Below, piece by piece: positions 27,991 through 37,015 of a stretch of 40,159 nucleotides of DNA (position 1 is the first letter of the stretch; each line of letters begins with the position of its first letter). The notes below the pieces were generated by a model. That model made no database searches and was not told the DNA's origin. It worked only from the letters and a program-made list of their open reading frames with translations. The translations under genes and the position numbers were made by a program. This stretch comes from Candidatus Chloroploca mongolica. GTDB taxonomy: Bacteria; Chloroflexota; Chloroflexia; Chloroflexales; Chloroflexaceae. The DNA lies in assembly GCF_004762035.2 (NCBI RefSeq), contig NZ_SIJK02000045.1:1-40159 (forward strand). Reading direction: 5' to 3'.

Positions 27991-28089
27991 TAGCGGCACG
28001 GCGGCGCCGTGCCCACCGTGCCCACCGTGCCCGCCGTGCCCACCGTGCCCACCGTGCCCACCCCCCGTCGGGGCACGGCGCCGCCGTTA
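27990..28089. repeat. GGGGCACGGC palindrome interrupted by six 9-bp tandem units
   Basis: The two halves of the palindrome (about 27990-28013 and 28070-28089) are separated by six units of GTGCCCACC (28009-28062; the third reads GTGCCCGCC). The right half supplies the TAA stop of the convergent diguanylate cyclase gene. Copy number is likely variable between strains. Confidence 0.75.
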
Positions 28090-30735
28090 CGTCACTGACT
28101 GCTCGAGCGATCTGCTATTCGTTTCACCCCAGATCTGCACACAATTGCGACCAGCATCTTTGGCCGCATAGAGGGCTTGATCGGCCCGGCTGATCAGTTC
28201 ATCGAGGTGCGTATTGTGGAGGCTTGTCTCCACGACAACGCCAATACTCGACGTGACCTGGATCTCGTGTTCATCGACCTGGACACGCAGGCTTTCGATC
28301 GCGTACCGAATACGCTCAGCCACGCGGGCGGCTCCTTCAAAATTGGTACTGGGCATCAAGACAGATAATTCTTCCCCTCCATAGCGCCCAACAAGATCGT
28401 CGGCCCGTACGCACGTCTGGCAGGTCTGGGCAACACTCTGTAAGACGCGGTCGCCTGCCTGGTGCCCATAGGTGTCGTTGATGAGTTTGAAGTGATCAAG
28501 ATCGAGCAAGAGCAGCGCAAGCGGCTGGCGTTGTCGCCGTGCGGTCAAGATGGCCTGCCACATCACGGCGAAAAAATGGCGCCGATTCGCCAGGCCCGTC
28601 AGCGGGTCGGTCGTTGCGAGCCGTTCGACTTCGGCAAAGAGCGTACAATTCTCCATTGCCGTCGCCACATGCGAGGCAAGCAGATCAAAGAGGGCCAGAT
28701 CATCGTCACTATACGCAGAAGCCTGTGGGTTATGGATTACCATCATGCCGATGACATCCTCGCGCCCATGCAGCAGCGTGGCAAGCATGGTGCGGCTCGT
28801 GAGCCTGAAACCCGGGAGTTCAGGGTGGAACTCGGTATCATTGAGATGGGTGAGGCACCAGGTTTGACCGCGAGCTAGCAGGGTTTCGGCAAAACTATTG
28901 GCAAAGGCATAACAACCGCCTTCGCGACTCTCACGCGGATCAGCGATATAGAGATCGCAAACCTCGCTGCACCCGAGGTCAAAACGGCTGATCACGAGGA
29001 CTTCAGCAGCCAGGAGGCCCTCGACAGCACGATAGACCTCGTGGAAGAGGGCTGCGGGGTTGGCGCTATGGGCCGCAATCTGGCGCGCCGCCTGTTGCAA
29101 TTCGGTCAGGCGGCGCTGCATGCGCACCTCACGCCCGTACATCTGGGCCTGTTCAAGAGAGACCGCGACGTGACTGGCAAACATCCGCCCGATACTGGCG
29201 TCTTCTTCGGTGAAAAAGTTCGGTTGCTGACTGTCAATCGTTAGAATGCCGATCACTCGCTCGCCAACAATCAGGGGCAAGGCGAGCCACGAGCGAATGA
29301 TCATATCCGGTGGATGGGTAAACTCAGGATGTTCTAGTTGGGTGTCGGCCAGTCGGATCGTCTCGGACCGCTCGTAGATCGCCTCTTCATAACTCCCTGG
29401 TTTGATCAGAAAACGCAGGCCCTTGACCTGCGCTGGATGGGCAAAACCGCGGCAATCGAAGATTTCACTGTATTCGCCGCAGCGGAGTTGCACCGATGCA
29501 CCGTCATAAGGCACCACGTGGGCCAGTTGCTCCATCATTCGGCCAACGGCTTCGTTGGCATCCAGGGTAGCGGCTACCGTGGCGACAGCTTGCCGTAAGG
29601 TTTCGACCTGATCGGCGCGCTTCCGGGCCTCTTCATACAGGCGGGCATGCTCAAATGCGAGTTCGCGAAAGGCTCCTTCGCTCTCACGTAGCGCCTCGTT
29701 AGCTTCGGCCTGCGTCGTAATATCGCGCAGCACGACCAGCATCCCTCCGACCCTGCCCCAACGGTCGTGCAGGCGCGTTATCACGGCTTCGTAGAGCACC
29801 CGTTCGCCGCTGGCTTCTGTATGGCTCAGGTTTGTGACGAATAGATCGCTGTTGTTCGGCTTCGTCGTGGGTCCCAACTCTGGGAGCAGGCTCGTCAGGC
29901 TGATGGGTAGGCGCTGTTTCGCCCCCAGGCGCTCGTATGCCTTTTGATTCATCGCAACGACCTGGTTGTGCTCATCAAGAATGAGGACGCTATCAGGCAA
30001 CTTCTCAAAGAGCATGTCATAGGCAATGGGCATCAACTCAAAGAGCCGTTTATAAAAGATGCTCCAGCCCATAATCGGGTAGCCAACAAGAAAACTGATT
30101 GGTGAAACCTCAAAGTCGGGGATGGCTGGCACGGGGACAATCTGCATCACGACCAGTAGCGAGATCATGGTGGGCAAGAGCAGGCTCAAGGGCAAGGCCC
30201 AGGCTTGCAGACGGGCATGGCGGGTTGCCTTCGCCGCAGCCTCGGCAAGAATCAGAATGGCTGCCCCAATTAAGAGGTATTGATAGCTCGTGATGACCCA
30301 GAACCACGGTCCGTAGCTGTAGAAGAGCCAGGGAATGGCACCATCAGTCAGCATCGTAACATTGGTGCGTACGAGGCTGTGGAACGCATCCGACCAGATG
30401 AGCAGGATATTGAGGAACGGAATGATCATCAGCAGATAACGGACCCGACGGGCTAGTTCTTGACGGCCAGTATAGCTGAGCGCAAAGAGCAAAGCCCCCA
30501 CAACAGTCACGTCAACCGCGAGAAAGATCAGGTTATCCCAGATGATCTGCCCCGTGAGGGTAGGGGTGACGGCTTTGCTGAGGGCAAAAGCTGCCCACGC
30601 GCTCTGACCGCCGAGCATTAAGCTAAACGAGACTGCGCCGGGCATCGCCCGGTGGCGTAGGGCATAGATGGCCAGTAAAAAGGCCACGATGGATGATACG
30701 GCAAGAAGGAAAATGAGTATGCTATCGATTGACAT
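28087..30735 (-). CDS. Membrane diguanylate cyclase: 7TM sensor, PAS, two GAF, GGDEF
   Basis: An 882-residue signalling enzyme making cyclic di-GMP from GTP. Seven hydrophobic segments (about 5-220) match the histidine-kinase-type N-terminal 7TM domain. A PAS domain (about 230-345, containing LPDSVLILDEHNQVVAMNQ) follows, then two GAF domains (about 385-540 and 555-705). The C-terminal GGDEF domain has the active site GGEEL near 786-790. RADD sits upstream as RXXD, the usual inhibitory c-di-GMP site, so product feedback is likely. No EAL domain is present. The ligand of the sensor part is unknown. It is transcribed divergently from bchM, sharing a 270-bp upstream region. Confidence 0.92.
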   Translation of the reverse strand: MSIDSILIFLLAVSSIVAFLLAIYALRHRAMPGAVSFSLMLGGQSAWAAFALSKAVTPTLTGQIIWDNLIFLAVDVTVVGALLFALSYTGRQELARRVRYLLMIIPFLNILLIWSDAFHSLVRTNVTMLTDGAIPWLFYSYGPWFWVITSYQYLLIGAAILILAEAAAKATRHARLQAWALPLSLLLPTMISLLVVMQIVPVPAIPDFEVSPISFLVGYPIMGWSIFYKRLFELMPIAYDMLFEKLPDSVLILDEHNQVVAMNQKAYERLGAKQRLPISLTSLLPELGPTTKPNNSDLFVTNLSHTEASGERVLYEAVITRLHDRWGRVGGMLVVLRDITTQAEANEALRESEGAFRELAFEHARLYEEARKRADQVETLRQAVATVAATLDANEAVGRMMEQLAHVVPYDGASVQLRCGEYSEIFDCRGFAHPAQVKGLRFLIKPGSYEEAIYERSETIRLADTQLEHPEFTHPPDMIIRSWLALPLIVGERVIGILTIDSQQPNFFTEEDASIGRMFASHVAVSLEQAQMYGREVRMQRRLTELQQAARQIAAHSANPAALFHEVYRAVEGLLAAEVLVISRFDLGCSEVCDLYIADPRESREGGCYAFANSFAETLLARGQTWCLTHLNDTEFHPELPGFRLTSRTMLATLLHGREDVIGMMVIHNPQASAYSDDDLALFDLLASHVATAMENCTLFAEVERLATTDPLTGLANRRHFFAVMWQAILTARRQRQPLALLLLDLDHFKLINDTYGHQAGDRVLQSVAQTCQTCVRADDLVGRYGGEELSVLMPSTNFEGAARVAERIRYAIESLRVQVDEHEIQVTSSIGVVVETSLHNTHLDELISRADQALYAAKDAGRNCVQIWGETNSRSLEQSVT

Positions 30736-30903
30736 GGCCTCAACCCTGGTTTGTCAAGACTATGTCTATTGTAACATATGGCCTTTACCACAGCATAGTT
30801 CCTTGTGAAAAAAGGTCTTTATTATGAATAGTAGCAAGCCTTAAACATTGTTTTACCTCATCAGAATGGCAAATAACGCCTGAGGATGAGCCTTGCACAG
30901 GTT

Positions 30904-30942
30904 TTGCATATACACATGCAATGTTGACTATAGTGCTATAAT
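30904..30942 (+). promoter_or_regulatory. bchM promoter with upstream inverted repeat
   Basis: Extended -10 box TGCTATAAT (30934-30942) without a good -35 box. The -35 region is instead occupied by an inverted repeat, TTGCAT-N6-ATGCAA (30904-30921), a possible regulator site. Confidence 0.5.
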
Positions 30943-30956
30943 CTTGTTGCACGAAC

Positions 30957-30977
30957 GTAGTTTGCAGTCTGCACTAC
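30957..30977 (+). promoter_or_regulatory. 21-bp palindromic element shared by bchM and bchH, bchM copy
   Basis: Arms GTAGT and ACTAC flank a centre containing CAGTCTG. It matches the element at 31750-31770 at 18 of 21 positions. It ends exactly 28 nt before the bchM ATG, the same distance as in bchH. Confidence 0.72.
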
Positions 30978-31005
30978 GTAATCTGTCTGGAAGTGTGGGT
31001 GGTCT

Positions 31006-31686
31006 ATGGATCTGGTTCGGCACAAGGCTCAGTTGCGCCAGTATTTCAATGGGGTAGGTTTTGAACGCTGGTCGGCAATTTATGGTCAAGCCGAACTTTC
31101 GCCGATTCGACGGTCGATTCGGGAAGGCCATACCACCATGCTTGCCGTTGCCAGCCAGTGGCTCGACGCAACGGCCATGTCGGCTGATGCGACGGCCCTT
31201 GACGCAGGTTGTGGCACCGGGCTCTTTACCCTGGAGCTAGCCCGCCGTGGTTTTCAGGTCACGGCGACTGACCTGGCCCCTCAGATGGTCGCGGCAACTG
31301 CCGAGGCCGCAACTCAGGCCGGTCTCGCTGAGCGGGTTACGACTCGGGTCGCCGATGTCGAAGAGTTGCAGGAACGCTATGATGTGGTTGCTTGTTTCGA
31401 TGTGCTCATTCACTATCCAGCCCAGCCCTTTGCCTTGATGTTGGCCCAGTTGGCCAATTGCTGCGAACAGACCCTCCTCTTCACCTATGCACCTCACAGT
31501 ACCCTGCTCGCCGCACTCCATCGTGTTGGTGGGTTCTTTCCCCGCAGTCAGCGTCGCACGACCATCCAGATGATCCCTGATGCGTTGGTGCGCTCAACAC
31601 TCGCTGATGCCGGAATGAAGGTGTGTCGTGCCCAGCGCATTAGCTGTGGCTTCTATCACGTAACTCTGGTGCAGGCCCAGCGCTAG
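31006..31686 (+). CDS. bchM: Magnesium-protoporphyrin IX O-methyltransferase BchM
   Basis: Transfers a methyl group from S-adenosylmethionine to the 13-propionate of Mg-protoporphyrin IX, the step after Mg-chelatase in bacteriochlorophyll synthesis. The 226-residue protein has the BchM N-terminus YFNGVGFERWSAIYG and the segment RRSIREGH. The SAM motif is ALDAGCGTGLFTLELA (about 65-80), followed by VACFDVLIHYP and the BchM-type FFPRSQRRTTIQMIP. Length is normal. The start is ATG 31006; GGAAG lies about 12 nt upstream, so the ribosome site is weak. It precedes bchH by 112 nt in the same direction, but bchH appears to have its own promoter and a copy of the same palindromic element. Confidence 0.93.
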   Translation: MDLVRHKAQLRQYFNGVGFERWSAIYGQAELSPIRRSIREGHTTMLAVASQWLDATAMSADATALDAGCGTGLFTLELARRGFQVTATDLAPQMVAATAEAATQAGLAERVTTRVADVEELQERYDVVACFDVLIHYPAQPFALMLAQLANCCEQTLLFTYAPHSTLLAALHRVGGFFPRSQRRTTIQMIPDALVRSTLADAGMKVCRAQRISCGFYHVTLVQAQR

Positions 31687-31737
31687 CCGGGTCTCCGTCG
31701 GATTAATATACCTTTTCAGGCGAAATAATCATTGGCT

Positions 31738-31770
31738 TAGAATGTTGCCGTAGTTCACAGTCTGAACTAC
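31738..31770 (+). promoter_or_regulatory. bchH -10 box and 21-bp palindromic element, bchH copy
   Basis: TAGAAT (31738-31743) is a candidate -10 box with a poor -35. The element at 31750-31770 is a perfect palindrome: arms GTAGTTCA and TGAACTAC around CAGTC. As RNA it would be an 8-bp hairpin with a 5-nt loop at the 5' end of the transcript. It ends 28 nt before the bchH ATG. Confidence 0.62.
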
Positions 31771-31798
31771 AATCATCCTTTCGGGGAAGGGTTTGCGC

Positions 31799-34700
31799 AT
31801 GCGGATTATCTTTCTCACCATTGATGGCAATCACGCCGCGGCTCTGCACGCTGCCGCTGCCCGGATCAAGGCCGAGCACGGCGTTGAGGTGCATGCCGCC
31901 TGTTACGACGCCGCTTCGCTTCGCGATGAGTCGGGTTGGCAGCGCCTTGAACGTGATCTCAAGGGGGCTGCCTTTGTCTTTGGGGCACGCCTCTTTGGTG
32001 AAGAGTATGTGCGTCCCCTCGAGCGTTTGCTTGGCGCGGCGTCGTGTCCGGTGCTGGTTATTACGTCCAATCCGGCGCTGATCCGCATGACCCGCCTTGG
32101 CAAGTTTAGTCTCGCCCCGCAGGCAGAGGAGTCGGGCGGCATGCTGCGCCAGTGGGTTAAGAAGTTGCGCCCTCAGGGTGGGGCCGGCGAGGCTCGGCGC
32201 CAACTGGCGGTGCTGCGTAACCTCAGCAAGGTGCTCAAGCTCATCCCCGGCAAGGCGCGTGATCTCTATACCTATATTGTTGCGCATCAGTACTGGACGA
32301 ATAGCTCGCCCGAGAATGTCTATCGCCTGGTCTGTCTCTTGATCGAGGCGTATGTGCCAGGCTATAAGGGCAAGTTGCCGGTGCTCGATCCCGTGACGTA
32401 TCCCGACCAGGCGCTGATCCATCCTGATGCTCCGGCACCATTTGCGACGCTTGAGGAGTATCAGAAGTGGCGGCGTTCGCTGCGAGGCAACAAGCGGGTT
32501 GGTGAGCAGGGTCGCGTGGGAATTCTGGCGATGCGTACGGTGGCGCTTAGTGGCAATACGGCTCACCTTGATGCATTGGTACGCGCACTTGAAGTTCGTG
32601 GCATCGAGGCGCGGATGGCCTATGCGACCGGCCTTGATATGCGGCCAGCCATTACGACCTTTTTCCAGGCCAATGACTACGGTAAGGCAAAAAGAGGTGC
32701 CCCTGCTACCAATGGACACGCCGCGACCGTCGATCTCTTGGTGAATGCGAGTGGTTTTGCGCTGGTCGGTGGCCCCGCCGAGAGCCGCCCCGCCGATGCC
32801 CGCGCTGCGCTCGGCGCACTTGATGTTGGCTATCTCGCGCCGGTACCGCTGGCGTTTCAACGGGTGGAAGATTGGCGTAATGATTGGGCCGGGCTGACAC
32901 CGGTGCAGGCGGCGTTGAGTGTGGCGGTGCCCGAACTCGAAGGGGCCGCTGATCCGCTGGTCTATGGTGGGCCAACTGCGGCTGGCGATGGCTTTGTCCC
33001 GGCGATGGCTGAGGTTGAGTTGCTCGCCGGGCGGATCGCTCGCCGCGTGGCGCTGCGCCGTACCCCCAACCATGACAAACGGCTTGCCCTGGTGCTCTTT
33101 AGCTTTCCCCCGAACCTTGGCAACCTTGGTACCGCCGCTTACCTCGATGTTTTCCGTAGTCTCCATAAGCTGCTGCAGGCGCTCAAGGAGGAAGGCTATC
33201 AGGTGGAGGTGCCTGAGGATGCCGAAGCCCTGCGCAATCTGGTGGTTGGCGGCAATGCGCTGGCGCACGGGGCTGATGCCAATGTGGCGGCGACCTTCCC
33301 TGTCGAACACTATATGCGCCTCTTCCCCAGTTATACCGAGATTGAGCCATGCTGGGGGCGGGCACCGGGTGAGTTGTTGAACGATGGGCGACGCTTCCGT
33401 ATCCTCGGGCGGCAACTGGGCAATATTTTTATTGGGGTTCAGCCGCCGTTTGGCTACGAGCGTGATCCGATGCGGATGCTGATGGCCCGTGATGCGGCCC
33501 CCAACCATGCTTTTGCCGCCTTTTATACCTGGGTTCGCCATACGTTTGATGCGCATGCGGTGGTGCATATCGGTACCCACGGGGCGCTCGAATTTATGCC
33601 CGGCAAGCAGGTTGGCCTCGGTGCTGATGATTGGCCTTCACGCTTGATTGGCGAACTGCCCAACTTCTACCTCTATAGCGTCAATAATCCGAGTGAGGCC
33701 GCGATTGCCAAGCGTCGGAGTGCAGCAACGCTCGTGAGTTACCTGGTGCCCCCCTTGCAGCAGGCCGGTCTCTATAAGGGTCTGCGTCAACTCAAGGATA
33801 GTATCGACGCGTATCGCCAGCGGCCCGACTCCGGGATGCTCGACGTGATCCGTGAGCAGGCCGCTAAACTGGGCATGCAGCAGGCCAATGCGACCTTGCA
33901 GCACGGTGTTGGTGAGGCGCACGCGACGCTTGAGGTTGCGCCAGATACCTACCTGGCCGCGTTGAGCCACGAGTTGCTGCAGATCGAAGAGCGCATGATC
34001 CCTGCTGGCCTGCACGTCTTTGGTCAGCCCCCCGAACCAGTTGAGATGGTTGATCTGCTGAGTCTGACGGCTACCTTCCATCAGTTTTCGTTGCGGGGTA
34101 CGCTCGTGACCTTCCCAGAGTTGATCGCCCGCAGTCTCGGCCTGGAATATGCCGCCCTCCGCGAGCGCCTGGCGACCGATCTTGAGGCACAGACCGATTG
34201 GCAGCGGATCGAAGGGCTTGCCAAGGACGCGATCCGTCGGTTTGTCGAGGGCGGGCCGTTTCACGTGCCCGGTATTCATCATCGTGATCTTGATCCGCTC
34301 GCTGATTTCCTTGGCGATTTGCTCAACCGGCTCAGTAGCGATAATGAACTCGCCGGTTTGTTGCACGGGCTCGAAGGTGGCTTTGTGACGCCATCGCCGA
34401 GCAACGATATTGTGCGTGATCCGTCGGTGGTGCCAACGGGGCGCAATGTCTATAGCCTCGATCCATCGCGTGCGCCGACTGCGCAGGCGGTCGAGAAGGC
34501 CGAGCGTCTGACGAATGAGTTGCTGGCTCGTGCCGTTGCTGATGCTGGTGCCCTGCCTGAAAGTGTAGCGGTGGTGCTCTGGGGGAGTGACAATCTCAAG
34601 AGTGACTGCGAAGGTGTGGCGCAGGTGCTTGCCCTGATGGGCGCGCGCCCGGTGCCTGACGAACTGGGCAACATCTCGGATGTCACCCTTATTCCGCTCA

Positions 34701-35632
34701 TCGAACTGGGTCGCCCCCGCGTTGATGTGGTGGTGACGGTGAGTGGCATCTTCCGCGATCTCCTTGGACACCAGATGCGTCTGATTGACAAGGCGGCCCG
34801 TCTGGCTGCCTGTGCCGATGAGCCACTTGAGGGTAACGCGGTGCGGCGCCACGCGCTGGCAACCGCTGCCGAACTTGGCCTTCCTCTCGAAGAGGCCGCT
34901 ACCCGCGTCTTTGCCAATGCGCCTGGTAGCTATGGTGCCCATATTAACCACATGGTCGAGAGCGGCTCGTGGGAGGATGACGAGCAACTGAGCGAGACCT
35001 TCCTCAGTCGCAAGGGTTTCACGATGGGCAAAGGTGGCGAGTGGAACGACTCGCGCCCGTTGCTCGAAAAAGCCCTCGCGAATGTCCAGGTCACCTTCCA
35101 AAATGTCGATAGCTTCGAGGTGGGAATCTCGGATATTGACACCTACTACGAGAGCCTGGGCGGCGTTACCAAGAGCATTGAACATCTGCGTGGCGAACGC
35201 CCCGCGATCCTTGTCTCGGACGCAGTCAGCACTGGGGCGAACCGGGTCGGCTCGTTAGACCAGATGGTACGCTTGGAGACACGGGCCAAGTTGCTCAACC
35301 CCAAGTGGTACGAAGCGATGCTGGCCCACGGGTACGAAGGGGCCCGCGAAATCGAGGCCCGCCTGAACAATACCTATGGCTGGAGTGCGACGACGAATGC
35401 GGTGGAGGGCTGGGTCTACCAGGGGGTTGCCGAGACGTATGCACTCGACGACGAGATGCGCGAGCGCCTGGCGAAGTTGAACCCGCACGCGGCGGCTGGC
35501 ATGGTTCGCCGCCTCCTTGAAGCCAATGGCCGCGGTTTCTGGGACGCGGATGAAGCGACCATCGAGCGGCTGCGCACGCTCTATGAGGATCTGGAAGACC
35601 AGTTAGAGGGTATCGGAGTGGCGCAGGCATAA
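31799..35632 (+). CDS. bchH: Magnesium chelatase subunit H BchH
   Basis: The porphyrin-binding catalytic subunit that, with BchI and BchD, inserts Mg2+ into protoporphyrin IX. At 1277 residues it has BchH length, and it contains the family signature HIGTHGALEFMPGKQVGLG near 580-600. Also seen are PFGYERDP, YLYSVNNPSEA, GYEGAREIEARLNNTYGWSATT and a BchH/CobN-type N-terminus MRIIFLTIDGNH. ATG 31799 is chosen because GGGGAAGG lies 8 nt upstream; TTG 31793 is less likely. bchI and bchD are not in the window. Chloroflexales often have several BchH paralogues, so this may be one of a set. hemN follows after 24 nt. Confidence 0.95.
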   Translation: MRIIFLTIDGNHAAALHAAAARIKAEHGVEVHAACYDAASLRDESGWQRLERDLKGAAFVFGARLFGEEYVRPLERLLGAASCPVLVITSNPALIRMTRLGKFSLAPQAEESGGMLRQWVKKLRPQGGAGEARRQLAVLRNLSKVLKLIPGKARDLYTYIVAHQYWTNSSPENVYRLVCLLIEAYVPGYKGKLPVLDPVTYPDQALIHPDAPAPFATLEEYQKWRRSLRGNKRVGEQGRVGILAMRTVALSGNTAHLDALVRALEVRGIEARMAYATGLDMRPAITTFFQANDYGKAKRGAPATNGHAATVDLLVNASGFALVGGPAESRPADARAALGALDVGYLAPVPLAFQRVEDWRNDWAGLTPVQAALSVAVPELEGAADPLVYGGPTAAGDGFVPAMAEVELLAGRIARRVALRRTPNHDKRLALVLFSFPPNLGNLGTAAYLDVFRSLHKLLQALKEEGYQVEVPEDAEALRNLVVGGNALAHGADANVAATFPVEHYMRLFPSYTEIEPCWGRAPGELLNDGRRFRILGRQLGNIFIGVQPPFGYERDPMRMLMARDAAPNHAFAAFYTWVRHTFDAHAVVHIGTHGALEFMPGKQVGLGADDWPSRLIGELPNFYLYSVNNPSEAAIAKRRSAATLVSYLVPPLQQAGLYKGLRQLKDSIDAYRQRPDSGMLDVIREQAAKLGMQQANATLQHGVGEAHATLEVAPDTYLAALSHELLQIEERMIPAGLHVFGQPPEPVEMVDLLSLTATFHQFSLRGTLVTFPELIARSLGLEYAALRERLATDLEAQTDWQRIEGLAKDAIRRFVEGGPFHVPGIHHRDLDPLADFLGDLLNRLSSDNELAGLLHGLEGGFVTPSPSNDIVRDPSVVPTGRNVYSLDPSRAPTAQAVEKAERLTNELLARAVADAGALPESVAVVLWGSDNLKSDCEGVAQVLALMGARPVPDELGNISDVTLIPLIELGRPRVDVVVTVSGIFRDLLGHQMRLIDKAARLAACADEPLEGNAVRRHALATAAELGLPLEEAATRVFANAPGSYGAHINHMVESGSWEDDEQLSETFLSRKGFTMGKGGEWNDSRPLLEKALANVQVTFQNVDSFEVGISDIDTYYESLGGVTKSIEHLRGERPAILVSDAVSTGANRVGSLDQMVRLETRAKLLNPKWYEAMLAHGYEGAREIEARLNNTYGWSATTNAVEGWVYQGVAETYALDDEMRERLAKLNPHAAAGMVRRLLEANGRGFWDADEATIERLRTLYEDLEDQLEGIGVAQA

Positions 35633-35656
35633 GTGGCCTAAGATGAGGAGTTTGTG

Positions 35657-37015
35657 ATGAACCGTGTGCGCGTGACGCCTGAACAGATCGATCACTACAA
35701 TAAGCCCGGCCCCCGCTACACCAGTTACCCAACGGTACCTGTCTGGGATCATACGTTTGGTGAGGCTGACTATCGTGAGGCCCTCGCTGCGGTTGCAACC
35801 CAGCCTGATGATGGACTCTCGGTCTATGTTCACTTGCCTTTCTGTGCCGAGCGCTGTGCCTACTGTGGCTGCAATGCAACTGTGACCCGCCACCCCCATG
35901 TGGTGGACGCCTACCTGGATCGTGTCGAGCGTGAGCTTGCGCTGGTGGCTCCCCAACTTGGCGGACGACGCCAGGTGGTGCAGTTGCACTGGGGTGGTGG
36001 CACACCGAATTTTCTGAACGAAGCTCAGACGCGGCGCTTGATGGCGATGCTTGACGAAGCCTTTCTTATTGACCGCAATGGCGAAGTTTCGCTTGAGATG
36101 GATCCTCGGATCGGTAGCCGCGCCCAGGTTGAACTCTACCGTGAGCTTGGCTTCAATCGGGTGAGCCTCGGTGTCCAGGATATTGACGCGCAGGTTCAGG
36201 TTGCGATTGGGCGGATTCAGCCTTTCAGCCAGACCGAGGGCCTCTATGAAGCCTGTCGTGAGCTCGGCTTTGCAAGTGTCAACGTTGATCTCGTCTATGG
36301 CTTGCCCTATCAGACTGCTACGGTCTTTGGACGGACGCTTGATGCCATCATCGGGTTGCGGCCTGACCGGTTAGCCTGCTTTAGCTATGCGCACCTGCCC
36401 CAATCGCGCTCCAATCAGAAGCAGGTTGATACCAATGGCCTGCCCGAGCCATACGCCAAGTTCGGGCTCTTCCAGATGGCAGTCGAGCGCCTGACTGATG
36501 CGGGTTACGACTGGGTCGGAATGGATCATTTTGCGCTTGAGGCCGATGAAATGGCTGTGGCCGCCCGTGAACTCAGGCTGCACCGCAACTTTATGGGCTA
36601 CACCACGCGCCCGGCGATGCACATGGTCGCCTTTGGGGTCAGTTCGATCGGTGATATGGCTGGCTACTATGTGCAGAATGATGTGGGCCTGGGGCGCTAT
36701 CAGAAGAGTCTTGATGCCGACAAACTGCCGGTTGTGCGCGGCATGAAACTGACTGAAGATGATCAGCGGCGGCGAGCGGCGATCACTCATCTGATGTGCA
36801 ACCTTGAATTGCCTTTTGCGATGGCGGCTGATGAAGCGATGCACGAATCCTTCTTGCGGGTGGCCGGTTATGCCGATGAAGGCCTGGTCATTGTCCATCC
36901 TGATCGGCTTGTCGTGACACCGCTCGGGCGTTATTTTGTCCGTAATCTCTGCATGGAACTGGATGCCCATCTGTCGCAGACGGCTGGTCGTCCGATCTTC
37001 TCCAAGACAGTGTAA
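35657..37015 (+). CDS. hemN: Oxygen-independent coproporphyrinogen III dehydrogenase HemN
   Basis: Radical-SAM enzyme converting coproporphyrinogen III to protoporphyrinogen IX without oxygen, upstream of both heme and bacteriochlorophyll. The 452-residue protein has GPRYTSYPTVP near 13-23 and the iron-sulfur motif YVHLPFCAERCAYCGC with Cys in CX3CX2C plus one more Cys. WGGGTPNFL, the DPR segment, GFNRVSLGVQD and a C-terminal HemN domain follow. ATG 35657 is chosen over GTG 35654 because GAGGAG precedes it at good spacing. It lies 24 nt after bchH, so co-transcription is likely, coupling porphyrin supply to Mg insertion under anoxic conditions. Confidence 0.93.
   Translation: MNRVRVTPEQIDHYNKPGPRYTSYPTVPVWDHTFGEADYREALAAVATQPDDGLSVYVHLPFCAERCAYCGCNATVTRHPHVVDAYLDRVERELALVAPQLGGRRQVVQLHWGGGTPNFLNEAQTRRLMAMLDEAFLIDRNGEVSLEMDPRIGSRAQVELYRELGFNRVSLGVQDIDAQVQVAIGRIQPFSQTEGLYEACRELGFASVNVDLVYGLPYQTATVFGRTLDAIIGLRPDRLACFSYAHLPQSRSNQKQVDTNGLPEPYAKFGLFQMAVERLTDAGYDWVGMDHFALEADEMAVAARELRLHRNFMGYTTRPAMHMVAFGVSSIGDMAGYYVQNDVGLGRYQKSLDADKLPVVRGMKLTEDDQRRRAAITHLMCNLELPFAMAADEAMHESFLRVAGYADEGLVIVHPDRLVVTPLGRYFVRNLCMELDAHLSQTAGRPIFSKTV

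Follow-up and report, generated by a model that had tools for sequence, protein, structure and literature searches.

A palindromic element at scattered bacteriochlorophyll genes of Chloroflexales, probably the operator of a pigment regulator

Known regulators of pigment genes and the present locus

In purple bacteria PpsR/CrtJ represses pigment genes from a palindromic operator, TGT-N12-ACA, that is found at scattered photosynthesis promoters, and in cyanobacteria the MarR family protein ChlR, an activator, controls acsF-type and hemN genes by oxygen. In lac-type systems an operator lies just downstream of the transcript start and a second operator follows hundreds of bp further on. The relevant passages of PMC7308566 describe PpsR as a repressor of pigment genes, state that the five Chloroflexus and Roseiflexus strains named there have no PpsR homologues, and report that the scattered photosynthesis genes of C. 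aurantiacus respond jointly to light and oxygen; according to the same passages, the transcription factor for these genes in filamentous anoxygenic phototrophs has not been identified and there is no genetics. In the part of PMC3150298 that concerns these genes, acsF is Caur_2590, one bchH is Caur_2591 and hemN (Caur_0644) is next to hemG (Caur_0645), a gene order that agrees with the loci we have seen. No earlier report of the operator or regulon described here was found in the open-licence literature.

The locus analysed here lies in a window of 40,159 nucleotides from Candidatus Chloroploca mongolica. It resembles the PpsR/CrtJ regulon in that a palindromic, putative operator is common to scattered photosynthesis promoters, and differs from it in the operator sequence: TGT-N12-ACA is absent from the sites at bchM and bchH, as the initial annotation had held, and has three matches in the window (13974, 15212 and 28268) against 6.5 expected by chance. 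With ChlR it has acsF-type and hemN genes as putative targets in common, whereas ChlR is an activator; inspection by eye found no conserved MarR gene beside the sites, only one unconserved MarR-like gene (L219). The likeness to the lac-type arrangement is a site just inside the inferred transcript with a second site hundreds of bp on, and the difference is the lack of helical phasing between the paired Chloroflexales sites. We think it probable, at roughly three chances in four, that both palindromes in the window serve as operators for a DNA-binding protein dedicated to the control of bacteriochlorophyll and protoporphyrin synthesis in phototrophic Chloroflexales; this protein would most likely be a repressor acting as a homodimer.

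The palindrome and its genes

The features around the two sites are as follows.
30924 to 30929, plus strand: TTGACT, 7 nt ahead of the -10 hexamer, recurrent in bchM promoters
30934 to 30942, plus strand: extended -10 box TGCTATAAT of the inferred bchM promoter, its spacing conserved in relatives
30957 to 30977, plus strand: putative operator 1 in the bchM leader, GTAGTTTGCAGTCTGCACTAC, with orthologous bchM-leader sites in relatives
31006 to 31686, plus strand: bchM, Mg-protoporphyrin IX methyltransferase; a cluster mate in L077 matches TIGR02021
31750 to 31770, plus strand: putative operator 2 in the bchM-bchH gap, GTAGTTCACAGTCTGAACTAC, with perfect 8-bp arms; relatives also have a second site in this gap
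31799 to 35632, plus strand: bchH, Mg-chelatase large subunit (Pfam CobN-Mg_chel)
35654 to 37015, plus strand: hemN; the cluster mate L073 matches TIGR00538

The two 21-mers are identical at 18 of 21 positions, with both outer pentamers and CAGTCTG in common, and the bchH copy is a perfect 8-bp inverted repeat around CAGTC, just as they had been read at the outset. The pattern GTAGT-N11-ACTAC, common to both, appeared 0.00 times in 100 shuffles of the window, and GTAGTTNNCAGTCTGNACTAC with up to three mismatches has a chance expectation of 0.02 in the window. Both also end 28 nt ahead of an ATG (31006 for bchM, 31799 for bchH), a spacing to which a meaning had been attached; the equality is true of these two sites and is not conserved, as the distance to the start varies from 3 to 357 nt across 63 gene-linked sites, and the meaning is thus not supported. 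In relatives the second site in the gap precedes either orf110-acsF-bchH or bchH. The hemN gene starts 21 nt after bchH, and the two are probably on the same transcript. Divergent from bchM is a gene for a GGDEF/GAF/7TM sensor protein (28087-30735, minus strand), and several relatives have other genes in its place.

The 6.3-Mb genome contains three exact GTAGTN11ACTAC places, against 13 for the reversed pattern, and the third of them is found on contig C44, 27 nt ahead of bchN. Near-matches on C44 and C105, the latter in the pucC-orf140 gap, reappear in the two other genomes of the genus. Of 41 genomes from the window's family 40 have the exact pattern, as do 19 of 24 genomes from three other families of the order, and GTAGTNNNCAGTCTGNACTAC with at most two mismatches is found in 43 of 61 genomes. 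The reversed control pattern is equally or more frequent in many of them; numbers by themselves are therefore weak evidence, and it is the gene context that matters.

Of the 92 exact sites in 20 genomes, 91 had their context analysed, all but G031:C449; five extra sites came from three more genomes that were picked because the mismatch search had listed them. All counted sites were selected for exact GTAGT and ACTAC, and a site was taken as linked to a gene, located by tblastn with twelve reference proteins, when it started at most 400 nt before the gene start or overlapped it by at most 60 nt; the gene names come from NCBIfam (BchN, AcsF, BchM, HemN, BchJ, BchE) and Pfam (PUCC, CobN-Mg_chel) matches of cluster members. 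Linkage was found for 58 of the 91 sites (63 of 96 with the picked ones), with a binomial P of about 3e-144 on the assumption of 15 promoters of 460 bp in 5.5 Mb. The 58 sites belong to orf110 (14, in orf110-acsF loci), bchM (13), bchN (9), pucC (9), bchH (6), bchJ (3), orf140 (2, in both cases in a gap common to orf140 and pucC), hemN (1) and bchE (1). Post-hoc inspection placed five of the other 33 sites in pigment loci as well, namely in the pucC-orf140 gap (L081), as a second bchH site (L122), between bchJ and bchE (L137 and L141) and ahead of a gene that we take to be reaction-centre-like (L143). The 28 of 91 exact sites with no pigment link show that a random background exists.

The query fixed only the outer pentamers, and the inner A10 and T12 played no part in the selection. 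These two bases occur together in 49 of the 58 gene-linked sites and in four of the 33 others (Fisher P 7e-12); the four are L081, L122, L137 and L141, and when the five pigment-locus sites are moved post hoc the numbers become 53 of 63 and 0 of 28. The half-site is GTAGT-n-C-n-n-A, with C7 in 33 and G15 in 47 of 63 sites, and the full element, GTAGT-n-C-n-n-A-n-T-n-n-G-n-ACTAC, is a symmetric DNA dyad. Its strict symmetric consensus, GTAGTNCAGANTCTGNACTAC, was found on only five contigs in a collection of 84,980 species that may omit the window's own genome; four are titled Chloroflexales, Chloroflexi (bacterium OHK40) or Oscillochloris and the fifth is from Streptomyces, and the strict consensus is thus almost confined to Chloroflexales. 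A profile of the site made from sequence only listed places in 14 of 15 genomes searched, with none in G021, and is not independent evidence, since 58 of the 63 sites went into its training and it scored only 150 first-look candidates per genome.

In many genera the element recurs at bchM, acsF/bchH, bchN-bchB, bchJ-bchE, hemN and pucC; the site is missing at bchH of G008 and G017, in the orf140-pucC gap of G017 and at bchM and bchH of G019. The pattern is neither scattered at random with respect to pigment genes nor lost in relatives, the two outcomes that the initial annotation had named as speaking against a pigment-regulon element particular to Chloroflexales, and its recurrence ahead of bch genes in many genera, together with the few contigs that carry the strict consensus, is in favour of such an element. 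In genus g9 the palindrome precedes hemN (L073, L290, L293), with hemG following in L193, and this appears to tie protoporphyrin synthesis to the pigment regulon.

Two genes of these loci deserve a comment of their own. In genomes of family f4 bchJ and bchE are separated by a radical-SAM gene (L197:9485-10597, L137), with the palindrome just before this gene or nearby. The other, orf110 (L192:11293-11628 and relatives), encodes about 110 amino acids without a family match; it is directly 5' of acsF in the acsF loci examined and is absent, together with acsF, from the bchM-bchH locus of the window. The orf110 protein may act together with the AcsF cyclase.

Promoter position and mode of action

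When the 70 nt upstream of the 63 sites were scanned for -10-like hexamers (at least five of six matches to TATAAT), such a hexamer began 18-22 nt ahead of the site in 26 of 63 flanks. This equals 5.2 hexamers per position in that interval against 0.6 elsewhere in the 70 nt, and TGn stands in front of the hexamer in 25 of the 26 boxes. A box at this spacing is found for 14 of 15 bchM sites, the one without it being the second in a tandem pair of Chloroflexus sites, and for eight of nine bchN sites; the figures are 1/15 for orf110, 0/10 for pucC, 1/6 for bchH, 1/4 for bchJ, 1/1 for bchE, 0/1 for hemN and 0/2 for orf140. The bchM and bchN sites cover about +8 to +29 of the inferred transcript, and because the -10 box begins 18-22 nt before them they would lie just inside it, as is the case for a repressor operator. 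In the window the hexamer begins 20 nt ahead of operator 1, which puts this site at about +8 to +28. The early suggestion that both palindromes coincide with the transcript start or closely follow it is borne out at bchM, with TGCTATAAT at 30934-30942, and is less certain at bchH, where a -10 box is lacking at that spacing. One promoter-like match in the bchH region overlaps the palindrome; shuffled sequences yield about as many, with 0.8 expected there. In bchM promoters of many genera TTGACT recurs 7 nt before the extended -10 box; it is too close to the box for a normal -35 and is possibly the site of a second regulator.

At bchM and bchN a bound protein would block initiation or early elongation just inside the transcript. 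At the second site, in the gap between bchM and orf110 or bchH where such a promoter was not seen, it would instead block an unrecognised promoter or read-through. At bchM and bchN repression from a site just within the transcript is the mechanism with the best support, and we infer it at the other sites. The next site follows the bchM site after 737 to 1121 bp in 12 loci (793 in the window), and with no helical phase among these 12 distances (R 0.07) looping between paired operators is not supported. The signal may be light and/or oxygen, given that under air bchM transcripts of C. aurantiacus are reported by PMC7308566 to be 25-fold more abundant in the light than in the dark.

It is also conceivable, if rather unlikely, that the protein bound to these same operators activates transcription or times elongation instead of repressing. 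Outside bchM and bchN few sites show the -10 box at this interval, and there a roadblock or an activator may be at work; most orf110 sites, the pucC sites and those of some other genes have no -10 box at that distance upstream. The bchM and bchN sites, however, are downstream of the -10 box, where activators rarely act. A quite different idea, brought up already in the initial annotation, is that the palindrome works as a 5' RNA hairpin. Such a hairpin in the leader could make the mRNA more stable, or be bound by a protein or the ribosome. The position of the bchM and bchN sites just after the inferred transcript start would suit this, as would that of the orf110 sites, which precede the start codon by 11 to 107 nt and in most cases by 11 to 33 nt, and the bchH copy folds well (z -2.5). 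The bchM copy, on the other hand, folds no better than shuffles (z -0.0), complementary bases occur at the inner pairs 6-16 to 9-13 in 70 cases, fewer than the 82.1 obtained on shuffling, the conserved symmetric A10 and T12 flank the centre, where the loop would be, and a search of 30700-31900 gave no Rfam family at E up to 1. The inner positions show no covariation of the stem type, and with this, the unremarkable fold of the bchM copy and the lack of an Rfam match we reject the hairpin, to which we give very little probability.

Conserved dyad symmetry without such covariation, common to linked promoters in several genera, is what would be expected of a DNA operator. It could be argued from the 28 sites with no pigment link that the palindrome is a chance resemblance, or a dispersed repeat, that has nothing to do with pigment genes. 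Against this stand the association with genes, the test of the inner bases and the recurrence across genera, and as the flanks of orthologous sites differ between genomes the site is not a copied repeat; we regard this explanation as already refuted, with a probability that is next to nothing. A repressor operator in DNA is the reading we retain.

Candidate regulators and significance

Three candidate regulators, of Rrf2, NarL and DtxR type, each had matches in most of the 61 genomes, non-phototrophs included. The Rrf2 gene of genus g5 (L094:2420-2860), located just upstream of bchJ, was judged unlikely since it is weak or absent in genomes that keep the site; with an E threshold of 0.001 it had matches in 58 of the 61 genomes, eight of nine in family f3, which is without a full bchH, among them, and there was no match in G019 and G034. 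In g5 it lies directly 5' of bchJ-bchE-hemN (L094, L149, L282; L283) and is gone from there in G032, which has only a weak match (1.8e-4), none beside bchJ, and keeps the operator. The distribution of a NarL-type response regulator beside bchJ/bchE in two f4 genomes is uninformative: 59 of the 61 genomes gave a match below the E threshold of 1e-40, and G009, which has many sites, gave only a weaker, paralogue-grade best match. A DtxR-type gene near pucC in some genera was likewise judged unlikely, as it was matched in 56 of 61 genomes and is absent from the site-bearing G005 and G030. A regulator gene was not seen behind the inspected places listed by the site profile, a set that leaves aside G036:C64, G033 and G054:C149.

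Among the candidates, the one that fits best by distribution, with exceptions, is orf140, a pigment-locus protein of 141 amino acids (L190:10372-10797). Of the 37 genomes in the window's family (f1) 36 have it, as a single copy, and it occurs in one of six f2, none of nine f3 and seven of nine f4 genomes, a distribution to which that of any pigment gene would be similar. The single f2 genome with orf140, G040, is also the only one there with a full-length bchH match, and has orf140, the putative operator and bchM-acsF-bchH all on one contig. The f1 genome that lacks orf140, G008, has bchH and no exact site, although it is only 81% complete. In many genomes orf140 is divergent from pucC with the palindrome in the common gap, and a site matching at nine or ten of ten positions lies within 700 nt upstream of orf140 in 20 of 34 rows, two of which are one locus; the others have no site nearby. 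Among the exceptions, G017 and G019 carry orf140 yet lack the sites given above, and G039 has orf140 with only a distant bchH homologue.

The AlphaFold model of orf140 has a mean pLDDT of 89. Foldseek gave no match to it at E ≤0.001 in PDB or BFVD, the best VIA-align Z of 4.9 is within the range of common arrangements, and neither comparison recognised a known DNA-binding fold; the four PDB sequence matches all had E of 0.7 or worse, and no convincing Pfam or NCBIfam family was found. Three of five matches on plasmids are annotated as IS1634 transposases, at E 0.07 to 10, and a profile comparison with IS1634 gave 97.4% over 39 columns, based on three transposases only, which had been picked because they matched. 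The N-terminus of orf140 thus resembles that of IS1634 transposases, and the protein is possibly a domesticated fragment. That orf140 reads the operator, which would make a transposase fragment the master regulator of photosynthetic pigment synthesis in Chloroflexales, is conceivable but rather unlikely.

A defined 21-bp operator can serve as bait for isolating the regulator and comes with a ready list of target genes, and it would let the control of pigment synthesis outside the PpsR world be compared.
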